A DNA stretch of 32,869 bases, from positions 1 to 32,869 of the forward strand of contig JAIKZM010000111.1 of NCBI GenBank assembly GCA_024682215.1. The letters are read 5' to 3'. Made by a program: the position numbers and the translations under genes. The DNA is from Saccharofermentans sp. GTDB taxonomy: Bacteria; Bacillota; Clostridia; Saccharofermentanales; Saccharofermentanaceae. The notes beneath the pieces are model-generated. The model ran no database searches. It was given only the letters and a program-made list of their open reading frames with translations, and was not told the DNA's origin. Shown here in pieces: positions 3,567 to 20,365 of this stretch (position 1 is its first letter; each line of letters begins with the position of its first letter).

Positions 3567-4424
3567 GTGGCAAAACTGCTTGTGACAGTATCGGGCGGAA
3601 CGGTCTCGTCATCAGTGAAAGACGGGCTGGTCAAGCTTGAAAAGGAGTCCCCGATAGCATCCTATCTGAAGGGGAAAGCCGGGCAGACCGAATTCATTTC
3701 GCCTGCCAATTACTCATCCGAGAACGCGCGTCCCGAGGATTACCGCGATGTTCTCAAAGCCGTATCGGAGGCTGTTTCCAAAAGCCGTCCTGACGGGATA
3801 CTGATCCTTCACGGAACCGATACGATGGCCTATTTTGCACAGCTGGCGGCAAGGGCTTTAAGCCACATGGCGGTCCCTTTCGTCATTACCGGTTCCAAGA
3901 TCCCGCCGGACTGCGAAGGTACGGATGCTTTTGCCAACATCGATTTCGCGGTGGAACAGCTGACGGAAGGAAACAGCGGTGTTGTATTCACCACGCACGA
4001 AGGATCGCAGAAGATAATCCCGGCAGGGAAAGTAACTTCCCCTGATATCTACGGCGATTACGGGATCTGGCCTGACAGCGCGGACATCGATTTCGCTTCG
4101 GAAAGATACAGGAAGGCGGCTGAGGCATTTTTCAGCGCGAAAAACCTTCACAGGATCCATGTTATCGCTGCTGCGCCCACGCCCGGCATCCTTGACGGGG
4201 GATTTGATACGGTCCTCATAATGTGCCACCATTCGGGCACAGCTGACGTGAAGCTCGTTCCCAAAGTCAGGAAATGGCATTCCGGGGGCATCAGGTGCTT
4301 TATGGCGCCGGTCCCCAGAAATTCAAATGTTTACGAGAGCCGTGCGATGCTTGAATCTGCCGGCTGCATATCGCTTCCCGGCGTCCCTGTCGAAGGCGCC
4401 TGGGCCGAGGCCCTGATCACATGA
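3567..4424 (+). CDS. L-asparaginase family protein (type I-like)
   Basis: Predicted cytoplasmic hydrolase of L-asparagine to aspartate and ammonia. Catalytic elements of the asparaginase/glutaminase family are present: Thr12 in the N-terminal SGGTVSS loop (usually TGGTIAS), the HGTDT block with Thr84-Asp85, and Lys111 in ITGSK. The family also shows as the TTHEGSQKIIPAGK region. At 285 residues it is somewhat shorter than the usual 320-340, mainly at the C-terminus, and lacks a signal peptide. The start is GTG at 3567, with GAGAGG at 3551-3556 as ribosome-binding site. The stop overlaps the next gene's ATG in an ATGA arrangement, which suggests coupled translation. Family assignment is strong; substrate (Asn, Gln or another amide) is inferred. 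Confidence 0.88.
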   Translation: MAKLLVTVSGGTVSSSVKDGLVKLEKESPIASYLKGKAGQTEFISPANYSSENARPEDYRDVLKAVSEAVSKSRPDGILILHGTDTMAYFAQLAARALSHMAVPFVITGSKIPPDCEGTDAFANIDFAVEQLTEGNSGVVFTTHEGSQKIIPAGKVTSPDIYGDYGIWPDSADIDFASERYRKAAEAFFSAKNLHRIHVIAAAPTPGILDGGFDTVLIMCHHSGTADVKLVPKVRKWHSGGIRCFMAPVPRNSNVYESRAMLESAGCISLPGVPVEGAWAEALIT

Positions 4425-5032
4425 CTTCAGTTCCTCCCGGAGCGTCAGGAACGGCATGCCTGACCCGTCCGCCATCGATCGACGGGAGTTTCGGAGGAAA
4501 CCAGATGTGGACCTCTTCTCCGCTCATGCAAAACTGCGGCTGCGGAGTGATCGCCGGGCTTGATGCGGTACTCAGATATGAGTGGATCTCGGCAATGACC
4601 AGGGATGAATATCTCAAACGCTTCGATGAGGCTGCCCGCTTCATCAGGCCGATCGTGCTGCCGGGGAAGCGCGAAAACCCTAAGAGTTTCGGTGTCAGTA
4701 CCGCCGGGTTTAAGCACGGCGTAAAAAAGTATGCGGCTTCCCGCGGGATCAGTGTAAAGGTCAAGGGATTTATCTTCGATTACGAGGAAAAGGCCGGGAA
4801 ATATCTTGCCATGGGCGTTCCGGTGGTTGCCCTGATAGCGGCGCCCTTTAACAATGTAAGCATAGTCAACTGCAACGGCGCGGGGAGCAGGATCGGTTTT
4901 CACTGGGTTACATGCACCGGGATAGACGACCGGTATCTTGAGGTTTCTTCCTGGGGAGTATTGCACAGGATTGAGCTTTCGGATCTGGACAGGGCGTCGG
5001 CAGGCGTCAGGTTTTATGCTATTTTGCCTTGA
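4421..5032 (+). CDS. Putative papain/C39-like cysteine peptidase-fold protein
   Basis: I do not recognise a named family. The 203-residue product has a layout typical of papain-like folds: QNCGCGVIAGLDAVL with candidate nucleophile Cys39, a later FHWVTCTGID with candidate His161, and a nearby SSWG segment (176-179). This resembles C39-type peptidases (Cys-Gly ... His-Trp-x-x-x-x-Gly). No signal peptide or transmembrane helix is evident. The first ATG overlaps the asparaginase stop (ATGA). A second in-frame ATG at 4505 sits 6 bp after a strong GGAGGA (4493-4498) and would give a 175-residue protein beginning just before the catalytic Cys. Residues 1-28 look unstructured, so 4505 is a serious alternative start. 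Coupling to an asparaginase may point to peptide or amide catabolism; that is speculative. Confidence 0.6.
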   Translation: MTSVPPGASGTACLTRPPSIDGSFGGNQMWTSSPLMQNCGCGVIAGLDAVLRYEWISAMTRDEYLKRFDEAARFIRPIVLPGKRENPKSFGVSTAGFKHGVKKYAASRGISVKVKGFIFDYEEKAGKYLAMGVPVVALIAAPFNNVSIVNCNGAGSRIGFHWVTCTGIDDRYLEVSSWGVLHRIELSDLDRASAGVRFYAILP

Positions 5033-5034
5033 AA

Positions 5035-5063
5035 TTGCAAGAAACCCTTTAATGAAGTAGTAT
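5035..5063 (+). promoter_or_regulatory. Possible promoter for the ACP/KS cassette
   Basis: In the 65-bp gap before the ACP gene, TTGCAA (5035-5040) and TAGTAT (5058-5063) are separated by 17 bp. Both depart from consensus, but the spacing is ideal and the gap is AT-richer than its surroundings. No FabT-like palindrome is present here, unlike upstream of fabH. Confidence 0.3.
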
Positions 5064-5097
5064 TAATAAGTTAAAAACACGTTTGGAGGATTCCTTA

Positions 5098-5343
5098 ATG
5101 AATGAGGAAATTGCAGCTAAGATAAAGAATATGCTCGTTGAGAGACTCAGGATCCCCGAGGACGAACTCGATTACGATTCAGAACTCTTCGGAGAGGATA
5201 TAGGACTTGATTCAATTGATTCGATCGAGATCATCGTAGGCCTGGAGAGCCTTTTCGGAGTTGACATGTCAGGCTCCGGCAAGGAGAATTTCCAGTCGAT
5301 CAGGACACTTACCAAGTACGTAGAAGAACATAAAGAGGACTGA
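5098..5343 (+). CDS. Acyl carrier protein (specialised type)
   Basis: Small acidic carrier protein of 81 residues that would carry acyl intermediates on a 4'-phosphopantetheine arm. The attachment site is Ser39 in GLDSIDS, followed by the typical helix EIIVGLESLFGV. A DSID core preceded by GEDIGL is more like ACPs of aryl-polyene or polyketide-type clusters than the DSLD of most housekeeping AcpPs. The start is ATG 5098, 7 bp after GGAGGA (5085-5090); a TTG at 5083 would lie inside that Shine-Dalgarno and is rejected. The ketosynthase gene starts one base after this stop. No other ACP gene is in the window, so a role as the housekeeping AcpP cannot be excluded, but the neighbouring KS fusion favours a dedicated ACP. 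Confidence 0.9.
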   Translation: MNEEIAAKIKNMLVERLRIPEDELDYDSELFGEDIGLDSIDSIEIIVGLESLFGVDMSGSGKENFQSIRTLTKYVEEHKED

Positions 5344-5344
5344 T

Positions 5345-7612
5345 ATGTCTGACAGCATCAAAAGATGCGTGGTTACGGGTTTAGGACTCGTATGTGCGCT
5401 TGGTGACGATGCCGCTTCTTGTGCGGCATCTGCTTTTTCAGGAAAGAGCGGGATCAAAGACGTTGAGTCCTTCGGTACCGCGAACTGTTATTCACACAAA
5501 GGGGCGGAAGTGCCCCTCATGGATGAGCAGCTCTGCAGCAGCAAGTACGACAGAACGACTCTGCTCTGCATCAAGGCTGCGGGAGAGGCGCTCGCGGATT
5601 CCGGTCTCGACCTCGGAAAGGAAGACCGCAGGAAGATCGGTGTCATCCTCGGAACATGCATCGGCGGTGCGGCGAGCATCGACAAGTACTATACCGACAG
5701 CCATGAAGGCAGGCCGGCAGACAGCGGGGATATCCTGAGGATGCCTGCATCCGCGATCGCAAATAATGTCGCGGTCCATTTCGGTCTCGACGGCATCACC
5801 GCAAATATCGTAAATGCATGCGCGGCAGGCACCATGAGCCTTGCAGGCGCCTGTGACATGATCAGGGCAGGCAAGGCCGATGTCTTTGTCGCCGGCGGAT
5901 GCGACAGTTTCTCATCGCTTGCTTATGCAGGTTTCCATGCTCTTCACGCTCTGGCCGAAGAAGCATGCTCTCCCTTCAATCACAGCAACGGCATAACGCT
6001 CGGGGAAGGCTCCGGCGTTCTCATCATCGAAAGCTATGAACACGCCGTTGCGCGCGGCGCAAAGATCTACTGTGACGTTCTTGGCGCCGGCGTAAGTTCC
6101 GACGCTTACCACATCACTGCGCCGAGGCCTGACGGAGAGGGACAGATGAGCGCGATCAGACGCGCGGCCCGCAATTCAGGCGTCGATCTTTCAGAGATCG
6201 ATTACATTAACGCCCACGGAACGGGCACGTCGAAAAACGATGAGGCGGAATTCCTTTCACTGAGGACGCTTTTCGGAAACAGGCCTGACCTCGCGGTCAG
6301 TTCAACAAAATCAATGAACGGACACTGTCTCGGAGCAGCGGGATCCATTGAAGCCGTGCTGACGGTCGAGGCTATGAACAGAGGCGAAGTGCCTCCCACG
6401 ATCGGATACAGCACTGAGGATATCGAAGCCCTGAAGGAGAAGTCCGGCGGCATAGGCTTCGTTGCGAACGAAAAGCAGACGAAGGATGTCGGTATTGCAA
6501 TGTCCAACTCGTTTGCGTTCGGAGGCAACAACGCAAGCATCGTCTTTTCCGGGGAGCCGCGCGTTGCTGCCCGCGAAAGGAACATGGATCCCGTCTATAT
6601 CACCGGCATCGGCGAAGTCACCGGAACCAAAGCCGAAGGCGCTTCAGGCTACACAGCCGACATCAGCCCCGAGGTCTTCAAGCAGCACGGGGTCAAAACG
6701 GCTTTCTTAAGAAAGCTCGACAGGTTCAGCGAACTCGTTCTCCTGAGCGGCATCGTTGCTCTCGAAGATGCCGGAATCAAGGTCGATGACACCAATGCGG
6801 ACGACATCGGCATCGTTATCGGAACATCTGACGGTCCCATGACCGAGATCGTGAATTTCCAGAAACTCGTCATCGAAAACGGCACCGAAAACGGAAGCGC
6901 GTTCATGTTTCCCAACACCGTATACAACGCGGCCGGCGGATACCTTTCGATATTCACGGGCATAAAAGGCTATAACATAACGATTGCAAACGGCTTCCAG
7001 GCGGGCCTCCAGAGCGTCATGTACGCATGCGAGACGATCCGCAGGGGAGACGGCAGCATCATGCTCGCGACAGGCGCGGACGAGATGACGGACGTCGAAT
7101 CTGAACTCTACGGTAACGCAGGTTACCTCGGAAACGGCAGGGACAGCGGATTTGAGCTCGGCGAGGGCTCAGTCACCCTCATACTCGAATCTTCAAAGAG
7201 CGCTTCGGAGCGCGGAAGCAAAAAGCTTGCGCAGATCGCAGGTTACGGCACGGCAAGGCATTCAGTGGCTTACGGCAAGGCAGAGGGCACCGGCGAAGCG
7301 CTTGCCAGAGCAATAGAAGAAGCTGCCGCAGATGCCGGCATCAGCGCTTCTGACATCAGGACAGTCTACGGTTTCGCGAACGGATCAAAGACGCTCGATG
7401 AGATCTTTAACGAAGCAGTTTCAAAGATCTGGGGAAACGGCATCGAAGTAAAGAACGTCAGATCGGAATGCGGCGAGGCAAGAGCGGCGTCAGCTGCGCT
7501 TTCGCTTGCAAGGGCAGCAAAGGAAATGGAGACGGGCGAAGGAGAATACTCCATTGCTCTGTCCTACGGAGCAGGCGGAATCTATTCCGCGGTAGTCCTC
7601 AAGAAAGCATAA
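5345..7612 (+). CDS. Fused ketosynthase - inactive ketosynthase-like (KS-CLF-type) didomain protein
   Basis: A 755-residue tandem of two thiolase-fold ketosynthase domains. KS1 (about 1-405) is FabF-like and complete: Cys159 in NACAAG, His291 in NAHGTGT, Lys322 and His327 in STKSMNGH, and the NSFAFGGNN gate. KS2 (about 415-755) keeps the fold (ITGIGEVTG, FPNTVYNAAGGY, ATGADE, ELGEGSV) but loses the catalytic residues. The nucleophile position reads NGFQAG (Phe551, with Gln552 next), and the NAHGTGT and NGH histidines are replaced by YGFANGS and SECGEA. This active-plus-dead pairing matches the ketosynthase/chain-length-factor heterodimers of type II polyketide and aryl-polyene systems and the fused KS-CLF of PUFA synthase. 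The gene starts one base after the ACP stop and is followed 12 bp later by a ketoreductase. Likely function is chain extension of ACP-bound malonyl units; the product is unknown. Confidence 0.88.
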   Translation: MSDSIKRCVVTGLGLVCALGDDAASCAASAFSGKSGIKDVESFGTANCYSHKGAEVPLMDEQLCSSKYDRTTLLCIKAAGEALADSGLDLGKEDRRKIGVILGTCIGGAASIDKYYTDSHEGRPADSGDILRMPASAIANNVAVHFGLDGITANIVNACAAGTMSLAGACDMIRAGKADVFVAGGCDSFSSLAYAGFHALHALAEEACSPFNHSNGITLGEGSGVLIIESYEHAVARGAKIYCDVLGAGVSSDAYHITAPRPDGEGQMSAIRRAARNSGVDLSEIDYINAHGTGTSKNDEAEFLSLRTLFGNRPDLAVSSTKSMNGHCLGAAGSIEAVLTVEAMNRGEVPPTIGYSTEDIEALKEKSGGIGFVANEKQTKDVGIAMSNSFAFGGNNASIVFSGEPRVAARERNMDPVYITGIGEVTGTKAEGASGYTADISPEVFKQHGVKTAFLRKLDRFSELVLLSGIVALEDAGIKVDDTNADDIGIVIGTSDGPMTEIVNFQKLVIENGTENGSAFMFPNTVYNAAGGYLSIFTGIKGYNITIANGFQAGLQSVMYACETIRRGDGSIMLATGADEMTDVESELYGNAGYLGNGRDSGFELGEGSVTLILESSKSASERGSKKLAQIAGYGTARHSVAYGKAEGTGEALARAIEEAAADAGISASDIRTVYGFANGSKTLDEIFNEAVSKIWGNGIEVKNVRSECGEARAASAALSLARAAKEMETGEGEYSIALSYGAGGIYSAVVLKKA

Positions 7613-7624
7613 CGGAGATTTGCC

Positions 7625-8359
7625 ATGGGAAAGACAGCATTGATCACGGGCGCTTCGCGCGGCATCGGCAAGGCGATCGCATTGAGACTCGCAAAAGACG
7701 GCTATGACATCGCGGTCAACTTCAACAGCAATCAGGAAGCGGCCGAAAAGACCGCTGAAGAGATCGCGGCGCTTGGAGTAAAAGCTGTGACATATAAGGC
7801 GGACACCTCTGACATCGATGAGGTCAAAGCCATGTTCAAAGCGATCAGAAATGATTTCGGTGCTCTCGATGTTCTCGTAAACAATGCGGGCATCGTTGAT
7901 GATGCATATCTTCTGATGGTCAACCGCCAGTCTCTCGAAAAGAGCCTCGCGATCAACATCCAGGGCTACATCAACTGCGCTCAGCAGGCGGCCCTCCGCA
8001 TGGCGGGCGCCGGAAAGGGCATCATAATCAACATATCATCGGTGAGTTCTGTCATAGCAGTCGAAGGCCAGACCGTCTACAGCGCCACCAAGGGTGCCGT
8101 TAACTCAATGACCGCAACCATGGCCAAAGAACTTGCCCCCCGCGGCATCAGGGTAAATGCCGTCGCTCCGGGATTTGTCGGGACCGACATGCTCAAATCC
8201 ATTCCCGGAGACCTTGTTGACAGATACATCGATTCGATCCCCATGAAGAGATTCGGCACGGCAGAGGATGTCGCGAACGTTGTCGCAAGCCTCTGTTCCG
8301 ACAGTTTCTCATACATGACCGGACAGGTTCTGGTATTGGACGGCGGTCTTTCACTCTAA
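7625..8359 (+). CDS. fabG: 3-oxoacyl-ACP reductase, SDR family (cassette copy)
   Basis: NADPH-dependent short-chain dehydrogenase that would reduce the beta-ketoacyl-ACP made by the adjacent KS fusion. The 244-residue product has the cofactor motif TGASRGIG near residue 8, the NNAG stretch, the catalytic Ser in INISSVSS, the YSATK Tyr-Lys pair, and a C-terminal GQVLVLDGG. It follows the KS gene by 12 bp, with CGGAG as ribosome-binding site. It is a paralogue of the fabG at 14302, and its partnering with ACP and KS genes suggests a dedicated ketoreductase. SDR membership is certain; substrate is inferred from context. Confidence 0.9.
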   Translation: MGKTALITGASRGIGKAIALRLAKDGYDIAVNFNSNQEAAEKTAEEIAALGVKAVTYKADTSDIDEVKAMFKAIRNDFGALDVLVNNAGIVDDAYLLMVNRQSLEKSLAINIQGYINCAQQAALRMAGAGKGIIINISSVSSVIAVEGQTVYSATKGAVNSMTATMAKELAPRGIRVNAVAPGFVGTDMLKSIPGDLVDRYIDSIPMKRFGTAEDVANVVASLCSDSFSYMTGQVLVLDGGLSL

Positions 8360-8387: not shown

Positions 8388-9116
8388 ATGAAATTACTTT
8401 TATTAAACGGAAGCCCCAAGTGCGGCGCAAGCAACACGATAAAGATCGCGAACGCGTTCGTCGAGGGCTTTCCCGAAGGAACTCAGATCCGAAGGATCGA
8501 TCTCTATGAAAAGAACATCATGCCCTGCAAAGGATGCTTTTCGTGCTGGAAGAGCGAAGAGGGCAAGTGCGTCATAAAGGACGACATGGAGGAGATCATC
8601 GCGGCCGTAAAGGATGCGGACATCATCATCCAGAGCTATCCGCTCTATTTCTACGGCATGCCTTCGCAGATGAAAGCCATGACCGACAGATGCCTTCAGC
8701 TCGTAATGCCCTACATGGGCGACAAGAGCGAATCCGATACAACGTTCAACGAGCTCCGCGATCCCGCGATGTGGGAAAAGAAGCTGGTCCTCATCAGCTC
8801 CTGCGGCTACGTAGAGACCGAGCCCGTCTATCCCGCGCTCCTCACGCAGTATGACCTGATCTGCGGCAAGGGCAATTACACCGCGATCCTCTGCCCCGAG
8901 GGCGAGATCTTCGTCACCGGCAAGGCAAAGCGCCAGCAGGATGTTTACCTCGAAAGCATCAGGGCAGCCGGCTCGGAATACGCGTCGGATCTCAGCCTGT
9001 CAGACGAGACTTTGAGGAAGATCGCCATCCCGATGCTTTCACCATTGAGTTTCAGTACGATCACTAAGGCTCACTGGAAAGACGGTCACTGGACAGAAAG
9101 AGATCCGGAACAGTAA
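8388..9116 (+). CDS. Flavodoxin-fold NAD(P)H-dependent oxidoreductase
   Basis: The 242-residue product belongs to the NADPH-dependent FMN reductase / multimeric flavodoxin group. The N-terminal LLLNGSPKCGASNT is the FMN phosphate-binding loop. A cysteine cluster PCKGCFSCW followed by GKCVIKDDM is the usual pattern of the iron-sulfur flavoprotein-like branch. YPLYFYGMPSQMKAMTDR is the conserved flavin-site segment. It probably moves electrons from NAD(P)H to an unidentified acceptor. It follows fabG by 28 bp and is 2 bp from the araC gene, so it may belong to the ACP/KS transcription unit, for example as a tailoring reductase or a regulated redox gene. The substrate cannot be read from sequence. 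Confidence 0.82.
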   Translation: MKLLLLNGSPKCGASNTIKIANAFVEGFPEGTQIRRIDLYEKNIMPCKGCFSCWKSEEGKCVIKDDMEEIIAAVKDADIIIQSYPLYFYGMPSQMKAMTDRCLQLVMPYMGDKSESDTTFNELRDPAMWEKKLVLISSCGYVETEPVYPALLTQYDLICGKGNYTAILCPEGEIFVTGKAKRQQDVYLESIRAAGSEYASDLSLSDETLRKIAIPMLSPLSFSTITKAHWKDGHWTERDPEQ

Positions 9117-9118
9117 AC

Positions 9119-10108
9119 ATGGAATTGAAGACCCGGAGCAAGCGATCTTCAATGGACTGTTCGATAGATGTTTTCTACGAACAGAAAAATGGCTTTCCCA
9201 AGTATCTTAACGACAGGGAAACTTATAAGATGGTGCTTGTCTCTTCGGGTTCATTCGTTGTCGAAGAGGACGGCGGGTATAAGATGATGTCTGCTCCCGT
9301 CGGGATCGTATTAAATGAAAAGGCCGATTTCAGGCTTGTTACCGAAAGCAACATAAAGTGCGACACGATCTGTTTCAAGCCCACGTTCATAAGGGAAGAG
9401 TTCACTTTTGAAGCGATCGGTTCCGGCAGGTACGAAAAGTTTTTCAGCGCCGTAAAAGACGATGGAAAGATGGGTTACCTGGAAAAGACCGAAGCTGCGG
9501 CCTTTGGCGACGTTAAGTTTGAAGACTGCTTTGCCGGATCGGTGTACCAGGATTATCTTTTGCTTTCGCAGTTCAATTCCGGTGACAGAAACATCCGGTA
9601 CTGGTCTTTGATCACCCAGGAGTATGAAGTCTTAAACAGGTTTTTCAAGAGCGTCAAATACGATATCGAAAAACAGCCTGACAATTACTGGATACTGAGG
9701 GTACGCTACTTTATCAATTCGATCCTGTTTACCGCCACCGCAGACTTTTACAGGGGGTTCAGGCAGTATGAACTTTACCGGGACCGCTTTGTCGCGAAAG
9801 TCGCGATGTATCTTTATGAAAACATCGGCGATGACATTACGATAGCAAGCCTTACCAAGCGCTTCTCGGTCAACAAGAACGCGCTGAACGACGCATTCTA
9901 CAAGGAGACTTCGATGTCCTGCATGGCTTATCTTGAGGACATGAGAATGACTCTTGCCAAGAGATGCCTGCAGTCTTCGGATCTCACGGTCAGCGAGATA
10001 AGCGATCTTTGCGGTTACAGGGATCACAACTACTTTTCCAAAGTTTTCAAAAAACATACGGGCATGTCGGCGACCGAATATCAGAAGCATGTGAAAGGCA
10101 TGTGCTGA
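9119..10108 (+). CDS. AraC-family transcriptional regulator
   Basis: A 329-residue regulator with two parts. The C-terminal ~100 residues hold the double helix-turn-helix of AraC/XylS proteins: ITIASLTKRFSVNKNALNDAF as first HTH, and LTVSEISDLCGYRDHNYFSKVFKKHTGMSATEYQ as second HTH with its conserved tail. The N-terminal ~220 residues are not recognised and may be a sensing domain with a cupin-like start. The ATG is 2 bp after the reductase stop, so the two are almost certainly co-transcribed. Adjacent placement suggests control of the reductase or of the ACP/KS cassette, but no operator could be assigned. Confidence 0.9.
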   Translation: MELKTRSKRSSMDCSIDVFYEQKNGFPKYLNDRETYKMVLVSSGSFVVEEDGGYKMMSAPVGIVLNEKADFRLVTESNIKCDTICFKPTFIREEFTFEAIGSGRYEKFFSAVKDDGKMGYLEKTEAAAFGDVKFEDCFAGSVYQDYLLLSQFNSGDRNIRYWSLITQEYEVLNRFFKSVKYDIEKQPDNYWILRVRYFINSILFTATADFYRGFRQYELYRDRFVAKVAMYLYENIGDDITIASLTKRFSVNKNALNDAFYKETSMSCMAYLEDMRMTLAKRCLQSSDLTVSEISDLCGYRDHNYFSKVFKKHTGMSATEYQKHVKGMC

Positions 10109-10197
10109 TATTACATAATTTTGTGCTGATTTTTCTAACCCGTGACCTGCTCAACAAAGTAAGATTTCGATAGAAACCTAACGGAGGACCAAAGGAT

Positions 10198-11286
10198 ATG
10201 AAAAAGACGATCAGGCCTTTTGCATTTGTTCTTACCGCAGTAATGACACTTGGCATGTTGGTCGCGTGCGCATACAAGCCGAAGACAAAGACGGAGACTG
10301 AAAAAGTAAACGTTAATGACGGCATGCTGCCCCAGGTCATTGAAAGGGAAGCGTCCTATGTACAAAAGACAAAGGACGGCGAGTGGGAATTGGAAAAGGC
10401 CGAGATTCTCAAGTGGGAGCTCTCGCAATCTGAAATACCCGATTCCGTACGCATCATCAGCACCGATGATGCCAAGTCCGTTTATCCCGCACTGGACGAT
10501 TCATTCAAGGGCCGGAAGGCTGCTTTTTATTTCCGCTTCAATGATGACATAAGCGGCATTCAGGCGACCGTAAACAAAGGCGCTGACGGTTCTTCCACCA
10601 TGGATGTGAAAATGCAGGGAACCGCCGACGTTGTTTTTTCGAGCGGCGGAAATAAGATGAAGTTTGACGGGATCAAAGTTCTCGGAGCCCTCATAGATGC
10701 TGACGGTTCTACCGATCTGAAGGTCGACATCGGTCAGGGCGAAGCTGTCTTAAAGGCTCCCGCAAAGGTTAAGAACGCAGGATTGAAAGACTTCATGGCC
10801 GCACAGTCCGATACGTTTATTTCAAATGAATCCTTCAAGGATCTTACCAGGTTTGATGTTACTTCTTCTCTCGTAAAAAGAGGCGCCTGGGATAAAAAGA
10901 TCTCCACTGATGGCGGCAATACCTCTCCCGATCTCAAGTGGGACAAGATCGACGGCGCTTCCCGGTATGTGGTCATCATGATTGACGGAAACTGGCTCCA
11001 CATGGATGTTTTCACGACAGATACTTCCCTGGCGGAAGGCGCATATAAAAGGAGAGGCGGCGAAGGAGCGGAGTTTGTCGGACCTTACCCTCCCCGGGGA
11101 TCCACCCATACTTATTCGGTCTTTGTTTTCGCGCTGAAGAACGAGCCCGGAAAGAACGTTCTCTTCTTTGACTGCGGCGGAAACAACATCAACGAGATAT
11201 TTAAAGGCCTGGATACGGACAGTTCAGGCAGCCAAGGCAACGTGATCGCTTACGGCAGATTAGACGGAAATTACACCAGTAAATGA
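10198..11286 (+). CDS. Lipoprotein with C-terminal PEBP (YbhB/YbcL-like) domain
   Basis: A 362-residue exported lipoprotein. The N-terminus has two lysines, a hydrophobic segment and the lipobox LVAC with Cys24 as predicted lipidation site. Residues about 90-200 are an unrecognised beta-rich region. The C-terminal half resembles the phosphatidylethanolamine-binding protein family: SPDLKWDKI, VVIMIDGNWLHMDVF, and GPYPPRGSTHTYSVFVFAL corresponding to the family's ligand-site GP-PP-G-H-Y segment. The function of bacterial PEBP proteins is poorly defined. The gene has GGAGG upstream of ATG 10198 and ends at a strong terminator, so it closes the cassette or forms its own unit. Lipoprotein call is strong, PEBP call good. 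Confidence 0.8.
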   Translation: MKKTIRPFAFVLTAVMTLGMLVACAYKPKTKTETEKVNVNDGMLPQVIEREASYVQKTKDGEWELEKAEILKWELSQSEIPDSVRIISTDDAKSVYPALDDSFKGRKAAFYFRFNDDISGIQATVNKGADGSSTMDVKMQGTADVVFSSGGNKMKFDGIKVLGALIDADGSTDLKVDIGQGEAVLKAPAKVKNAGLKDFMAAQSDTFISNESFKDLTRFDVTSSLVKRGAWDKKISTDGGNTSPDLKWDKIDGASRYVVIMIDGNWLHMDVFTTDTSLAEGAYKRRGGEGAEFVGPYPPRGSTHTYSVFVFALKNEPGKNVLFFDCGGNNINEIFKGLDTDSSGSQGNVIAYGRLDGNYTSK

Positions 11287-11377: not shown

Positions 11378-11406
11378 TTGACAAGCATGCTTACCATATA
11401 TATACT
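11378..11406 (+). promoter_or_regulatory. Sigma-70-type promoter of the fab operon
   Basis: Consensus -35 TTGACA (11378-11383), exactly 17 bp, then -10 TATACT (11401-11406), one mismatch from consensus. It lies 37 bp before the fabH ATG. The -10 touches a FabT-like palindrome, so repressor binding would block polymerase. Confidence 0.85.
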
Positions 11407-11420
11407 TTGATAATCAAACT
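11404..11420 (+). promoter_or_regulatory. FabT-like operator palindrome upstream of fabH
   Basis: ACTTTGATAATCAAACT contains a perfect 13-bp palindrome TTTGAT-A-ATCAAA (11406-11418). This closely matches the TTTGATTATCAAA core known for FabT, the MarR-family repressor of fatty-acid genes in streptococci and relatives, which binds with acyl-ACP as co-repressor. It overlaps the end of the -10 box and the expected transcription start. No fabT gene is in the window, so the binding protein is inferred. Confidence 0.72.
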
Positions 11421-12437: not shown

Positions 12438-13370
12438 ATGACCAGAATCACGGATCTTATCGGAATAAAGTACCCAATCTTCCAGGGCGGAATGGCTTGG
12501 GTCGCAGACTGGCATATTGCTTCAGCGGTTTCTGAGGCAGGCGGACTCGGCATCATTGGTGTAGGCGGCGCTGACGAGAACTGGCTCCGCGAACAGATCA
12601 GGCTTTGCCGTGAGGCTACGAACAAGCCGTTCGGCGTTAACCTCATGCTCATGAATCCCAGAGCTCCCGAGATCGCAAAGGTGATCGCAGAGGAAAAGGT
12701 AAAGGTAGTCACGACAGGTGCAGGTTCACCTGAGAAATACATGGAAATGTGGAAGGAAGCCGGCATCATCGTCGTTCCCGTTACGGCAGGCGTTGCGCTC
12801 GCAAAGAGAATGGAACAGTGCGGTGCTGACGCTGTCATCGCTGAGGGCACTGAGTCCGGCGGACACATCGGCGAAGCAACCACGATGACACTCGTTCCCC
12901 AGGTTGTTGATGCGGTATCAATCCCCGTTATCGCCGCAGGCGGTATCGCTGACGGCAGAGGCGTTGCGGCTGCGTTCATGCTCGGCGCCGAGGGCGTTCA
13001 GTGCGGAACCGTTTTCTGCGCATGCGATGAGGTTAATGTACACCAGAACTACAAGGACATGGTCATCAAGGCAAAGGACAACTCCACAAGAGTTACCGGA
13101 AGATCCTACGGCCATCCCGTAAGACAGATCAGAAACGCTCTTTCAAACAAGTATCTTGAGATGGAGCAGAACGGCGTAACCTTCGAAGAACTCGAGGGAC
13201 TCACGGTAGGAAGTCTCCGCAAGGCTGTCGTTGAAGGCGACACCAAGCAGGGTACGTTCATGGCAGGACAGATCGCAGGTCTTATTAAGGAGATCAGACC
13301 TGCAAAAGTCATCATCGAATCAATGTTCGAAGAGGCTGACAAACTCCTTGGAAGGAAGATTGAAGCATAA
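12438..13370 (+). CDS. fabK: FMN-dependent enoyl-ACP reductase II
   Basis: Reduces trans-2-enoyl-ACP in the last step of each elongation cycle, with FMN and NAD(P)H. The product is 310 residues from ATG 12438, which has AAAGGAG (12424-12430) 7 bp upstream. It is a TIM-barrel of the FabK/nitronate monooxygenase group: YPIFQGGMAWVAD at the N-terminus, GVNLMLMNP, TTGAGSPEKY, AEGTESGGHIGE and IPVIAAGGIADGRG are characteristic flavin/phosphate-binding segments. Location between fabH and fabD supports enoyl reductase over nitronate monooxygenase. No fabI is present. The stop overlaps the fabD start by one base (TAATG). Confidence 0.95.
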   Translation: MTRITDLIGIKYPIFQGGMAWVADWHIASAVSEAGGLGIIGVGGADENWLREQIRLCREATNKPFGVNLMLMNPRAPEIAKVIAEEKVKVVTTGAGSPEKYMEMWKEAGIIVVPVTAGVALAKRMEQCGADAVIAEGTESGGHIGEATTMTLVPQVVDAVSIPVIAAGGIADGRGVAAAFMLGAEGVQCGTVFCACDEVNVHQNYKDMVIKAKDNSTRVTGRSYGHPVRQIRNALSNKYLEMEQNGVTFEELEGLTVGSLRKAVVEGDTKQGTFMAGQIAGLIKEIRPAKVIIESMFEEADKLLGRKIEA

Positions 13371-14287
13371 TGAAGATCGCATTTTGTTATCCGGGCCAGG
13401 GTGTCCAGCAGGTAGGAATGGCCGAAGCATTCGTTAAGTCAGATGCACGTTATCAGGAAATGGTGGACGTTGCTTCAAAGGCTTCGGGCATCGACATGAA
13501 CAAACTCCTTTTCGAGCCCAACGAAGACATTAACATTACTGAAAATACGCAGCCTGCACTTGTTACGGCATGCTGCATCATCACCGAAGCGCTTCTTAAG
13601 GCCGGCATAAAGCCTGAAGTTACAGCAGGCCTTTCGCTCGGTGAATACTGCAGCCTTTATGTTGCAGGCGCTTTGAGCTTTGAGGATGCCGTAAGGCTTA
13701 CAAGGATCAGGGGAAGGCTCATGTCTTCCGAAGTTCCCGCAGGCGAAGGCTCTATGGCTGCCATCATCGGTCTTAAGAAGGATCAGGTGGAGAGTGTCAC
13801 AAACACCATCGAAAACGTATGGCCCGCAAACTTCAACTGCCCCGGACAGATCGTCATCACGGGCAAGAAGGAAGCCGTCAGGGAAGCAATGCCCAAGCTC
13901 GAGGAAGCCGGTGCTGTAAAGGTCGTTGAACTCAACGTTTCCGGACCTTTCCATTCACCTCTTCTCAAGGGTGCAGGCGAAAAGCTCGGCAAGGAGCTCG
14001 CAGGCGTGGAACTCGGCGATCTCAAGATCCCTTATTTCGCAAATGCCAATGCATCGGAGATCACTGACAAGGCTCAGATCAAAGAGCTCCTGGAGAAGCA
14101 GGTATACAGCCCCGTAAGGTGGGAAGAGACACTTTACGAGCTCGAAAAGATGGGCGTAGACACCATCATTGAAGTCGGTCCCGGAAGGACGATCGCAGGT
14201 TTCGTAAGAAAAACTGTTCCGTCTATAAAGGTAATCGGTGTATCCACACCTGAAGACATAGAGAAAATACTCGAGAAGATCGGATGA
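13370..14287 (+). CDS. fabD: Malonyl-CoA:ACP transacylase
   Basis: Transfers malonyl groups from CoA to ACP, supplying extender units to FabH and FabF and possibly to the upstream KS fusion. The 305-residue product has PGQGVQQVGM at the N-terminus, nucleophile Ser89 in GLSLGEY, Arg114 in the RIRGRLM helix, NCPGQIVITG, and catalytic His195 in GPFHSPLL. The length is normal for FabD. It begins on the last base of the fabK stop. Its stop lies within 17 bp of the next gene's start and also overlaps an upstream in-frame ATG of that gene. Confidence 0.96.
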   Translation: MKIAFCYPGQGVQQVGMAEAFVKSDARYQEMVDVASKASGIDMNKLLFEPNEDINITENTQPALVTACCIITEALLKAGIKPEVTAGLSLGEYCSLYVAGALSFEDAVRLTRIRGRLMSSEVPAGEGSMAAIIGLKKDQVESVTNTIENVWPANFNCPGQIVITGKKEAVREAMPKLEEAGAVKVVELNVSGPFHSPLLKGAGEKLGKELAGVELGDLKIPYFANANASEITDKAQIKELLEKQVYSPVRWEETLYELEKMGVDTIIEVGPGRTIAGFVRKTVPSIKVIGVSTPEDIEKILEKIG

Positions 14288-16848: not shown

Positions 16849-17298
16849 ATGGCAAATTCACTCGACACTATCGGAATCATGAAGATCATTCCGCACAGGC
16901 ATCCTTTCCTCCTCATCGACAGGGTTGAAGATTATGTACCCGGCGAGTATGCCATCGCATATAAGAACTTCACATACGATGAATATTTTTTCAGAGGACA
17001 CTTCCCTGAATATCCTATCGTTCCCGGCGTCCTCACTGTTGAGGCTCTTGCCCAGACAGGCGCTGTCAGCATCCTTTCCCAGGAGGCATTCAAGGGCAGG
17101 ATCGCTCTTTTCGCAGGCGTTGACAAGTGCAAGTTCAAGGGTTCGGTAGTTCCCGGAGACACAGTAAGACTTGAGACAAGGATCACCGCAATGAAGAACA
17201 CTTTCGGCATCGGTGAGGCTGTAGCTACCGTCAACGGCAACGTTGTCGTAAAGGCAACACTCAAGTTTGCTCTTCTTCCCAAGGGAGCCGAAGCTTAA
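16849..17298 (+). CDS. fabZ: 3-hydroxyacyl-ACP dehydratase
   Basis: Dehydrates beta-hydroxyacyl-ACP to the trans-2-enoyl form. The 149-residue hotdog-fold protein has the IPHRHPFLLIDRV signature, catalytic His51 in FRGHFPEYPIVPGV and Glu65 in VEALAQTGA, both in the FabZ arrangement. AAAGGAG (16834-16840) lies 8 bp before the ATG. As the only dehydratase in the window, it is also the candidate dehydratase for the upstream ACP/KS cassette. Confidence 0.96.
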   Translation: MANSLDTIGIMKIIPHRHPFLLIDRVEDYVPGEYAIAYKNFTYDEYFFRGHFPEYPIVPGVLTVEALAQTGAVSILSQEAFKGRIALFAGVDKCKFKGSVVPGDTVRLETRITAMKNTFGIGEAVATVNGNVVVKATLKFALLPKGAEA

Positions 17299-18670: not shown

Positions 18671-20365
18671 ATGGAACTAAGATATCTGTTTAAGAAGACG
18701 CAGTCCGTTCCGGACTCCGAAAACACGAAAAGAGAAGATCAGGGCCCCCAGACGCCGCAGGGACTTTTCCACAAGTGCGCCAAATGCGGCGAGACCATCT
18801 TTTCCGAAGAACTCAAGAGAAACCTCTTTGTCTGCCCGAAGTGCGGCGGATATTTCCGCATGTACGCGGGTACCAGGATAGACAGTATCCTGGACGACGG
18901 TTCATTTGAGGAATGGGACAATGACATAAAGGAAATGAACCCGCTTAAGACACCGGGTTACGAGGACAAGCTCGAAAGGCTCCGCGAAAAGACTTCGCTC
19001 GATGAGGCTGTCATTACCGGCAAAGGCCTGGTAAACGGCAATCCCGCCTGCCTCGGCGTCATGGACTGCCGTTTCATGATGGCTTCCATGGGAAGCGTTG
19101 TAGGCGAGAAGATCACCAGGATGTTCGAGCGCGCCACGGAGGAAAGGCTTCCGGTCATCATCTTCACGGCTTCGGGCGGCGCGAGGATGCAGGAAGGCAT
19201 CGTGTCACTGATGCAGATGGCTAAGACATCCGCGGCGATCAAGAGACATTCCGATGCAGGTCTTCTTTACATTACCGTACTGACCGATCCGACCACAGGA
19301 GGCGTTACCGCAAGCTTTGCAATGCTCGGCGACATAATTCTCGCTGAACCCGGTGCGCTCATCGGTTTCGCAGGCCCCAGAGTAATCGAGCAGACCATAG
19401 GCCAGAAGCTCCCCGACGGTTTCCAGCGTTCCGAATTCCTTCTCGAGCACGGCTTTGTCGACGATATCGTCACAAGGTCCGACATGAAGGATTATCTTAC
19501 CGACATCTTGAGGCTGCATGCCGACAAAGGCAGCTTCAAGCCTGAAAAGGCCGGAAAATATAAGCTTCCGAAGAGATCTTCCAAGCTCACTCCGTGGGAC
19601 AAGGTCATGATCTCCCGCGGCAAGGACAGACCCGTCGCGGAGGATTACATAAACGAGCTTTTCCCCGATTTCATCGAATTCCACGGTGACAGGTTCGTCA
19701 AGGACGATAAGGCCATAATGGGCGGCATCGCCACATTTGCGGGCAGGACCGTTACCGTTATCGCAGAGTCAAAAGGCCACGATACAAAGGAAAACATTGA
19801 ACGCAATTTCGGCATGCCGTCACCTGACGGATACCGCAAGGCGCTGCGTCTTATGAAGCAGGCCGAAAAGTTCGGCCGTCCCGTGATCTGTTTCGTCGAT
19901 ACTCCGGGCGCATACTGCGGACTTGAAGCAGAAGAGAGGGGACAGGGTGAGGCCATCGCCAGGAACCTTTACGAGATGTCATCCCTCAAAGTCCCCGTAC
20001 TCTCGATAATCATAAGCGAGGCAGGCTCAGGCGGAGCACTGGCCGTCGCGGTATCCGACGAGGTCTGGATGCTCGAAAACGCCATCTACGCCATCCTTTC
20101 ACCCGAAGGCTACGCAAGTATCCTCTGGAAGGATTCAAAGCGCGCTTCCGAGGCGGCTGCGGAAATGAAACTGACTGCCGCTGACATGAAGGATAAAAAG
20201 ATCATCGAAAAGATCATTGCGGAGCCTGAGAATCTTTGCAAAGATAATATAGAGACCGTCATCATTCAGCTTAGGGAAGGCATTTCTTCCTTCATCGGAA
20301 ACAACCTGGATTTTGACGGCAGCGAACTCGCGAAAAAGAGGTACGACAGATACCGGAGCTACTGA
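18671..20365 (+). CDS. accDA: Fused acetyl-CoA carboxylase carboxyltransferase (beta-alpha)
   Basis: Transfers the carboxyl group from carboxybiotin to acetyl-CoA, giving malonyl-CoA. This 564-residue single chain holds both subunits that are usually separate. Residues 30-290 are AccD, with a zinc ribbon (Cys36, Cys39, Cys55, Cys58) and the [12 protein letters not shown] and [17 protein letters not shown] segments. Residues about 305-564 are AccA, with [55 protein letters not shown] and [11 protein letters not shown]. The AccA half lacks most of the helical N-terminus found in E. coli AccA, and the linker is a short basic stretch (about 290-305). No frame break is seen. The last base of the stop is the first of the next gene's ATG. 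Confidence 0.96.

Follow-up and report, generated by a model that had tools for sequence, protein, structure and literature searches.

We analysed a 32,869-nucleotide stretch of the Saccharofermentans sp. genome (assembly GCA_024682215.1, contig JAIKZM010000111.1; hereafter the window), in which a cassette of four genes resembling an iterative acyl-chain synthase lies next to the housekeeping fatty-acid operon (Table 1). The first gene, preceded by a Shine-Dalgarno-like TTGGAGGA, encodes an acyl carrier protein (ACP) of 81 residues. It is followed after 1 bp by a single chain in which Pfam finds two stretches each of ketoacyl-synt and Ketoacyl-synt_C, and this, after 12 bp, by a FabG-type ketoreductase (KR), whose top NCBIfam model is 3-oxoacyl-ACP reductase, with a score under the model cut-off. 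The open reading frames (ORFs) and Pfam agree with the initial annotation on these three genes, on their spacing and on the DSID core of the ACP. The fourth gene, which encodes a flavoprotein, had been overlooked.

Table 1. Coordinates of the cassette, its catalytic codons and neighbouring features in the window.
Feature	Coordinates	Strand	Remarks
Short intergenic stretch ahead of the ACP gene	5033..5097	+	Promoter-like AATTGCAAGAAA ... TAGTATTAA, kept in close relatives (upstream regions compared by eye)
ACP	5098..5343	+	Phosphopantetheine site GLDSIDS; Pfam PP-binding 1.7e-10; ATG to stop codon inclusive
Active ketosynthase plus inactive ketosynthase-like half, one 755-aa chain	5345..7612	+	Pfam, residue states, model
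Catalytic codons, first half	Cys159 5819-5821; His291 6215-6217; Lys322 6308-6310; His327 6323-6325	+	
Codon at the Cys position, second half (Phe551)	6995..6997	+	Next codon is the conserved Gln552
Codons at the His positions, second half	Asn679 7379-7381; Glu711 7475-7477	+	
FabG-type KR (short-chain dehydrogenase/reductase)	7625..8359	+	Pfam adh_short_C2 3e-64
Iron-sulfur-flavoprotein-like FMN reductase, flavodoxin fold	8388..9116	+	Cx2Cx2Cx7C; PF03358/PF02525
AraC-family regulator	9119..10108	+	Accessory (only some relatives)
Lipoprotein with PEBP domain	10198..11286	+	Accessory (only some relatives)
FabT-like box TTTGATAATCAAA, fabH promoter	11406..11418	+	Perfect palindrome; the window's only one at <=2 mismatches
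FabD, housekeeping operon	13370..14287	+	Presumably supplies malonyl to the ACP of the cassette, which has no transacylase gene of its own
FabZ, housekeeping operon	16849..17298	+	Sole FabA/FabZ-type dehydratase detected in the genome; presumed shared

The 755-residue protein joins two unlike halves. The first is an intact ketosynthase (KS) with its catalytic Cys-His-Lys-His tetrad. In the second, described earlier as a KS-like domain without catalytic residues, Phe stands at the Cys position and Asn and Glu at the His positions, as that description implied, and a Lys counterpart is not recognisable. In systems of a KS paired with a chain-length factor (CLF), the KS condenses and the CLF shapes the cavity and the chain length (PMC8358021). 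We refer to the two parts as the KS half and the CLF half.

The cassette is real and conserved, and is not peculiar to a single assembly. Among 84,980 GTDB species, a pattern scan for relatives of the CLF half found at least 268 stretches encoding one. Carriers among the best 80 of these 268 stretches, which were fetched, include Ruminococcus bromii YE282 and many Oscillospirales metagenome-assembled genomes. Class- and phylum-level samples yielded few carriers. Within the genus, a first search of 59 relatives gave the full-length KS-CLF protein in 15 genomes besides the window's, and a genus-wide search gave it in 35 of 85, the window's included. The initial annotation had treated a fusion confined to one assembly as grounds for doubt; the fusion occurs in these genus genomes and in many other Clostridia. 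The KS and CLF are fused at all 78 intact full-length loci examined, which come from the 80 fetched stretches. Across 84 fused proteins (these 78, the window's, that of Lachnospira eligens and four other plasmid-borne ones), the KS tetrad was always intact and Cys was never found at the CLF position. At two loci (L105 and L114) and in one genome (G853) the halves lie in separate frames; these cases may reflect genuine splits or faults of assembly. Purifying selection acts on both halves, with pN/pS of about 0.10 for the KS half and 0.20-0.23 for the CLF half. A GLDSIDS-type motif was present in 78/78 cassette ACPs examined, VYSA(S/T)K in 77/79 cassette KRs, and the flavoprotein Cys motif in 75/75. 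The flavoprotein accompanies the cassette in almost every relative, including the distant L. eligens version.

In a quick tree, the clostridial KS halves formed one clade and the CLF halves another (support 100 each), the two roughly mirroring one another. ApeO of the aryl polyene (APE) clusters and other fused KSs lay closer than FabF to the KS half, in a tree whose long branches (ApeC, ApeO, Pseudalkalibacillus) leave the deep placements unsure. The firm result of the tree work is that a single clade of KS half and FabF was rejected (p-AU 0.005). This bears out the KS/CLF-type iterative synthase proposed earlier, and we are highly confident of that enzyme class.

For the structure of the fusion we used an AlphaFold model built with 57 diverse sequences (pLDDT 88.8, pTM 0.92), a model from 16 close sequences (pLDDT 55) having been set aside. 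The top Foldseek match was the KS-CLF of PfaC (PDB 6riw; TMq 0.82, 18% identity, rmsd 6.9), which was the only one among the matches listed to align over the whole chain; FabFs cover one half. Because PfaC matches along the whole model, the halves probably fold back on each other as an internal KS-CLF pseudo-dimer. The VIA-align rows span the KS half alone.

The history of the cassette within the genus was followed in a marker tree of 26 genomes. Carriers formed one clade (17 rows, support 97), with a non-carrier, G009, nested inside. At the empty site in G009, a C39-like gene leads straight to fabH with no trace of the cassette genes; the flanking genes are 64-97% identical to those of the window, and the GGDEF protein 59%. 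The simplest reading is a single gain on the clade stem and at least one later loss.

Outside the genus, the cassette is part of a larger operon. Among 48 loci beyond the genus, a KR was present in 47, a FabZ-like dehydratase (DH) in 45, the flavoprotein in 43, a PlsC-like acyltransferase, whose gene precedes the ACP, in 37 and an Sfp-type phosphopantetheinyl transferase (PPTase) in 26. The commonest order was PlsC-ACP-KS-CLF-KR-FabZ-PPTase-flavoprotein, with the KS-CLF as one gene, and some loci additionally had a patatin. The DH of these relatives is FabZ-type, with weak similarity to FabA. The megaplasmid of L. eligens ATCC 27750 carries TetR, an alpha/beta hydrolase, ACP, KS-CLF (47% identity), KR, FabZ, FabD, AccD, the flavoprotein and PlsX, and the distant locus L125 has FabD, an AccD/AccA pair and an acyl-ACP thioesterase as extras. 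A FabK query gave no homologue in the 48 loci, and with the annotated neighbours read as well, no enoyl reductase (ER) was found in any version of the cassette. In R. bromii YE282 (G867:C36 and C60), two dehydratases score like the cassette type and a third is present, pointing to a second cassette in this strain. The ACP-KS-KS-KR order that the initial annotation had proposed looking for in related genomes was found, outside the genus within a larger canonical operon that includes the flavoprotein. Likewise, "compact" is a true description of the window cassette but probably of a derived state, because relatives carry their own dehydratase and acyltransferase and often a PPTase.

The window cassette has no dehydratase, acyltransferase, PPTase or transacylase gene, and the genes fabHKDGF lie beside it. 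The absence of a dehydratase and a PPTase next to it had been noted before; the operon of the window's lineage has neither of these, nor an acyltransferase. Genome-wide counts, partly from incomplete genomes, gave one FabA/FabZ-type dehydratase each in 13 genus genomes, carriers included, one PPTase of AcpS size each in 15 genus genomes, and at least two FabZ-type dehydratases in 14 of 16 other carriers beyond the window's lineage. With one FabZ and one PPTase per genome, the cassette would, if it dehydrates, use the housekeeping FabZ, and its ACP would use the housekeeping AcpS. Borrowing from housekeeping enzymes is thus the simplest reading of the gene counts, which strengthen the earlier suggestion that FabD and FabZ are borrowed. 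In one carrier (L039, genome G016) the flavoprotein gene is followed directly by fabD, fabZ and accDA, with no fabH, fabK, fabG or fabF in between. In the housekeeping operon of the window, AccD and AccA are seemingly fused in one 564-aa ORF (18671-20365).

A FabT-like box was sought upstream of the ACP gene and not found there. As the only such box lies at fabH and the cassette has a promoter-like stretch of its own (in which no sigma-70 site was called), co-regulation through the box is not suggested. In a 60%-identity clade (L061, L065, L067, L069, L070 and others), a stretch around TTGGAAAAACAG...AACATAGTGTAAGGTTAT is strikingly conserved no more than about 90 bases upstream of the ACP gene. 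In the clade of the window itself the version differs (TTGCAAGAAA...).

We compared the cassette with known systems. APE clusters (Escherichia coli CFT073; ApeO-ApeC, ApeQ, ApeI/P, ApeE/F, ApeD) share with it a KS and CLF partner, KR, DH, ACP and lysophospholipid acyltransferase, the kinds of protein by which E. coli aryl polyenes are made and anchored (PMC8253772). The acyltransferase ApeD, with ApeJ, is proposed to anchor the APE product in lipid (PMC8253772). As in APE clusters, the KS, CLF partner, KR and ACP are encoded together in the window; the dehydratase encoded in the cluster has its counterpart in the 45 loci beyond the genus, not in the window. The KR is 35% identical to ApeQ, the KS 29% to ApeO, and the R. 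bromii PlsC 25% to ApeD. In contrast to APE clusters, KS and CLF are fused here and the flavoprotein is additional. No linked acyl-ACP synthetase for an aryl starter, initiating KS (ApeR), methyltransferase or Lol/MMPL export gene was seen among the ORFs of the window or the recurrent neighbours.

The best solved sequence match of both halves is PDB 9s5h/9s5i, named only as a 3-oxoacyl-ACP synthase (the KS half matches 9s5h chain B at 300 bits; the CLF profile matches chain C, which lacks the Cys, at 115 bits). It consists of two separate chains, unlike the fusion here, and no paper, source or product for 9s5h was found in the literature searched. Fused KS-KS proteins on plasmids of Priestia megaterium, Pseudalkalibacillus and Streptomyces also place an active and a degenerate KS in one chain, in polyketide-like clusters, but they have about 32-36% identity to the cassette protein, other neighbours and no cassette-type gene order. 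The ishigamide KS/CLF (PDB 6kxd), from a highly reducing type II polyketide synthase (PKS), gave Z 56.1 and rmsd 1.8 over 391 residues at 33% identity; its KS and CLF are separate chains, and FabFs match equally well, so this match is non-diagnostic. The genes fit an ishigamide-like set of KS/CLF, KR and DH without ER, with the DH in relatives only. The celluxanthenes/flavoaffinins, the yellow pigment of Clostridium thermocellum, were considered as a product class and ruled out, since an iterative type I PKS produces the celluxanthenes (PMC12144888).

A catalogue of type II PKSs includes Firmicutes KS-CLFs, and its main text mentions neither a fusion nor these genera. The literature searched, which leaves out most subscription journals, contained nothing relevant on a fused KS-CLF or on R. 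bromii with a ketosynthase, and no description of the cassette. The operon is widespread in gut Clostridia and apparently undescribed.

What might this operon make? We propose a fatty acid synthase-like (highly reducing type II PKS-like) iterative synthase that makes a polyenoyl chain for a lipid, a proposal for which we see the case as evenly balanced. The ACP would be activated by the housekeeping AcpS and charged with malonyl through the housekeeping FabD. After a presumed priming step (the cassette has no starter-supplying ligase or KSIII), the KS half would condense malonyl units, with the Cys-less half as a fixed pseudo-dimer partner shaping the cavity and length of the chain. That a condensing KS is paired with a CLF that sets cavity and length is established. 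The KR would then reduce, and a dehydratase, the operon's own in most relatives and the housekeeping FabZ here, would dehydrate. Most cycles would keep the double bond, giving a conjugated polyenoyl-ACP, and the PlsC-like acyltransferase or PlsX of relatives may hand the chain to a glycerolipid. The flavoprotein would have a conserved, putative redox role. A conjugated polyene is the product expected from a KR and FabZ-type DH without an ER, and we give it about an even chance. A lipid destination is somewhat likelier than that; the PlsC-like gene (weakly ApeD-like) and PlsX of relatives point to it.

Several observations weigh against this proposal. The housekeeping ER FabK is encoded about 4 kb from the cassette and would be able to reduce the intermediates, and the search for an ER comprised the FabK query and annotated neighbours only, so that an unrecognised type is possible. 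The proposal does not account for the constant flavoprotein. In the window, the cassette has no linked aryl-starter ligase, release enzyme or exporter, and no BLAST similarity between the CLF half and ApeC was detectable.

FabK is central to a second explanation, a specialised synthase of saturated or 3-hydroxy fatty acids, which is possible though on balance unlikely. Here the KS-CLF would set an unusual chain length, and FabK would reduce the chain fully, or the window's lineage would stop at the 3-hydroxy stage. The adjoining fabHKDGF genes and the missing dedicated dehydratase of the window would suit such an enzyme, and the PlsC and PlsX of relatives suit any fatty acyl chain. However, relatives beyond the genus nearly always have the dedicated FabZ-like DH and their loci have no FabK homologue, and in the tree the KS half falls with ApeO and further fused KSs and not with FabF.

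A further explanation involves an unlinked locus beside fakA (locus B), found while seeking the missing acyltransferase (L227:5365-11100, on contig C70 of genome G000, and L228-L237). It encodes, in order, a GT2, an alpha/beta hydrolase, an AMP-ligase with a carrier domain and a tandem PlsC-like acyltransferase, with a small ACP next in several genomes. Its neighbours are DegV and FakA genes, PlsX in several genomes and, in most, a putative recG (judged by size and place). The cassette and locus B together would form a split, acyl-ligase-primed polyene-lipid pathway to an APE-like lipid, which we think improbable. The gene order was kept in the 11 genomes fetched, the GT2 resembles ApeJ (4e-18), and the tandem acyltransferase resembles ApeD (2e-5) and the PlsC of the R. 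bromii operon (4e-16). Locus B occurred in 32 of 35 genomes with the KS-CLF compared to 2 of 50 non-carriers (Fisher p 1e-17); by gene, the 85 genus genomes comprised 32 with KS-CLF and tandem acyltransferase, 3 with the KS only, 2 with the acyltransferase only and 48 with neither. Yet carriers are one clade in the marker tree and the association breaks in G009, which has locus B but no cassette, and in G023 and G027, where the reverse is true, so shared ancestry explains the co-occurrence as well as function does. In addition, the tandem protein was not seen in 16 other carriers, where the matches were single-domain acyltransferases. We therefore treat locus B as a lead.

A system like polyunsaturated fatty acid (PUFA) synthase, making methylene-interrupted polyunsaturated chains as PfaC does, is very unlikely. 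PfaC likewise has an active KS followed by a CLF in one chain, and it is the top structural match. However, identity to it is low, and PfaC belongs to a multidomain synthase, whereas the chain here stops after the CLF half, without DH domains, and works with a lone stand-alone ACP and free KR and DH. Neither Pfa-type DH domains nor tandem ACPs nor a PfaD-type ER were seen in the window or the fetched cassette loci, and the DH of relatives is FabZ-type. Finally, an ordinary FabF paralogue in which a duplicated domain is decaying is the least likely reading: FabF is the best NCBIfam model for the KS half, but at 363 bits against an equivalog cut-off of 493.75, the joint clade with FabF was rejected, and the CLF half is under purifying selection and kept in fused relatives.

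The surroundings of the cassette are also conserved. Nearly all carriers in the genus have the order GGDEF/EAL, exoA, asparaginase, C39-like, ACP, KS-CLF, KR, flavoprotein and fab genes. The C39-type-like protein (4421-5032; fold judged by eye, no Pfam match) is constantly upstream of the cassette. The GGDEF-EAL-like protein (58-2727) has a C-terminal repeat-like part; the ORF at the same place in relatives is about 1280 aa long, and the window copy may start beyond the contig end. In some species the AraC regulator and PEBP lipoprotein (9119-11286) separate the cassette from fabH; close relatives lack them.

In the widest, and unlikely, form of our proposal, the operon would represent a widespread and so far undescribed route to polyene- or unusual-acyl lipids in Gram-positive gut anaerobes (R. 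bromii, L. eligens and rumen Saccharofermentans-type bacteria) that is functionally parallel to aryl polyenes. The lineage of the window would have split it into two unlinked parts, A by the fab operon and B by fakA, and left it to housekeeping enzymes to dehydrate, transfer malonyl and activate the ACP. If our main proposal is right, a dedicated acyl or polyene chain bound to lipid, for which nobody has yet looked, would be made by common gut and rumen Clostridia, a Gram-positive anaerobic counterpart of the aryl polyenes. The KS-CLF would be a naturally tethered pair, useful for studies of chain-length control, and the cassette of the window a natural case of a specialised synthase giving up its own dehydratase and sharing that of primary metabolism. 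The cultivable carriers R. bromii and L. eligens make the pathway testable.

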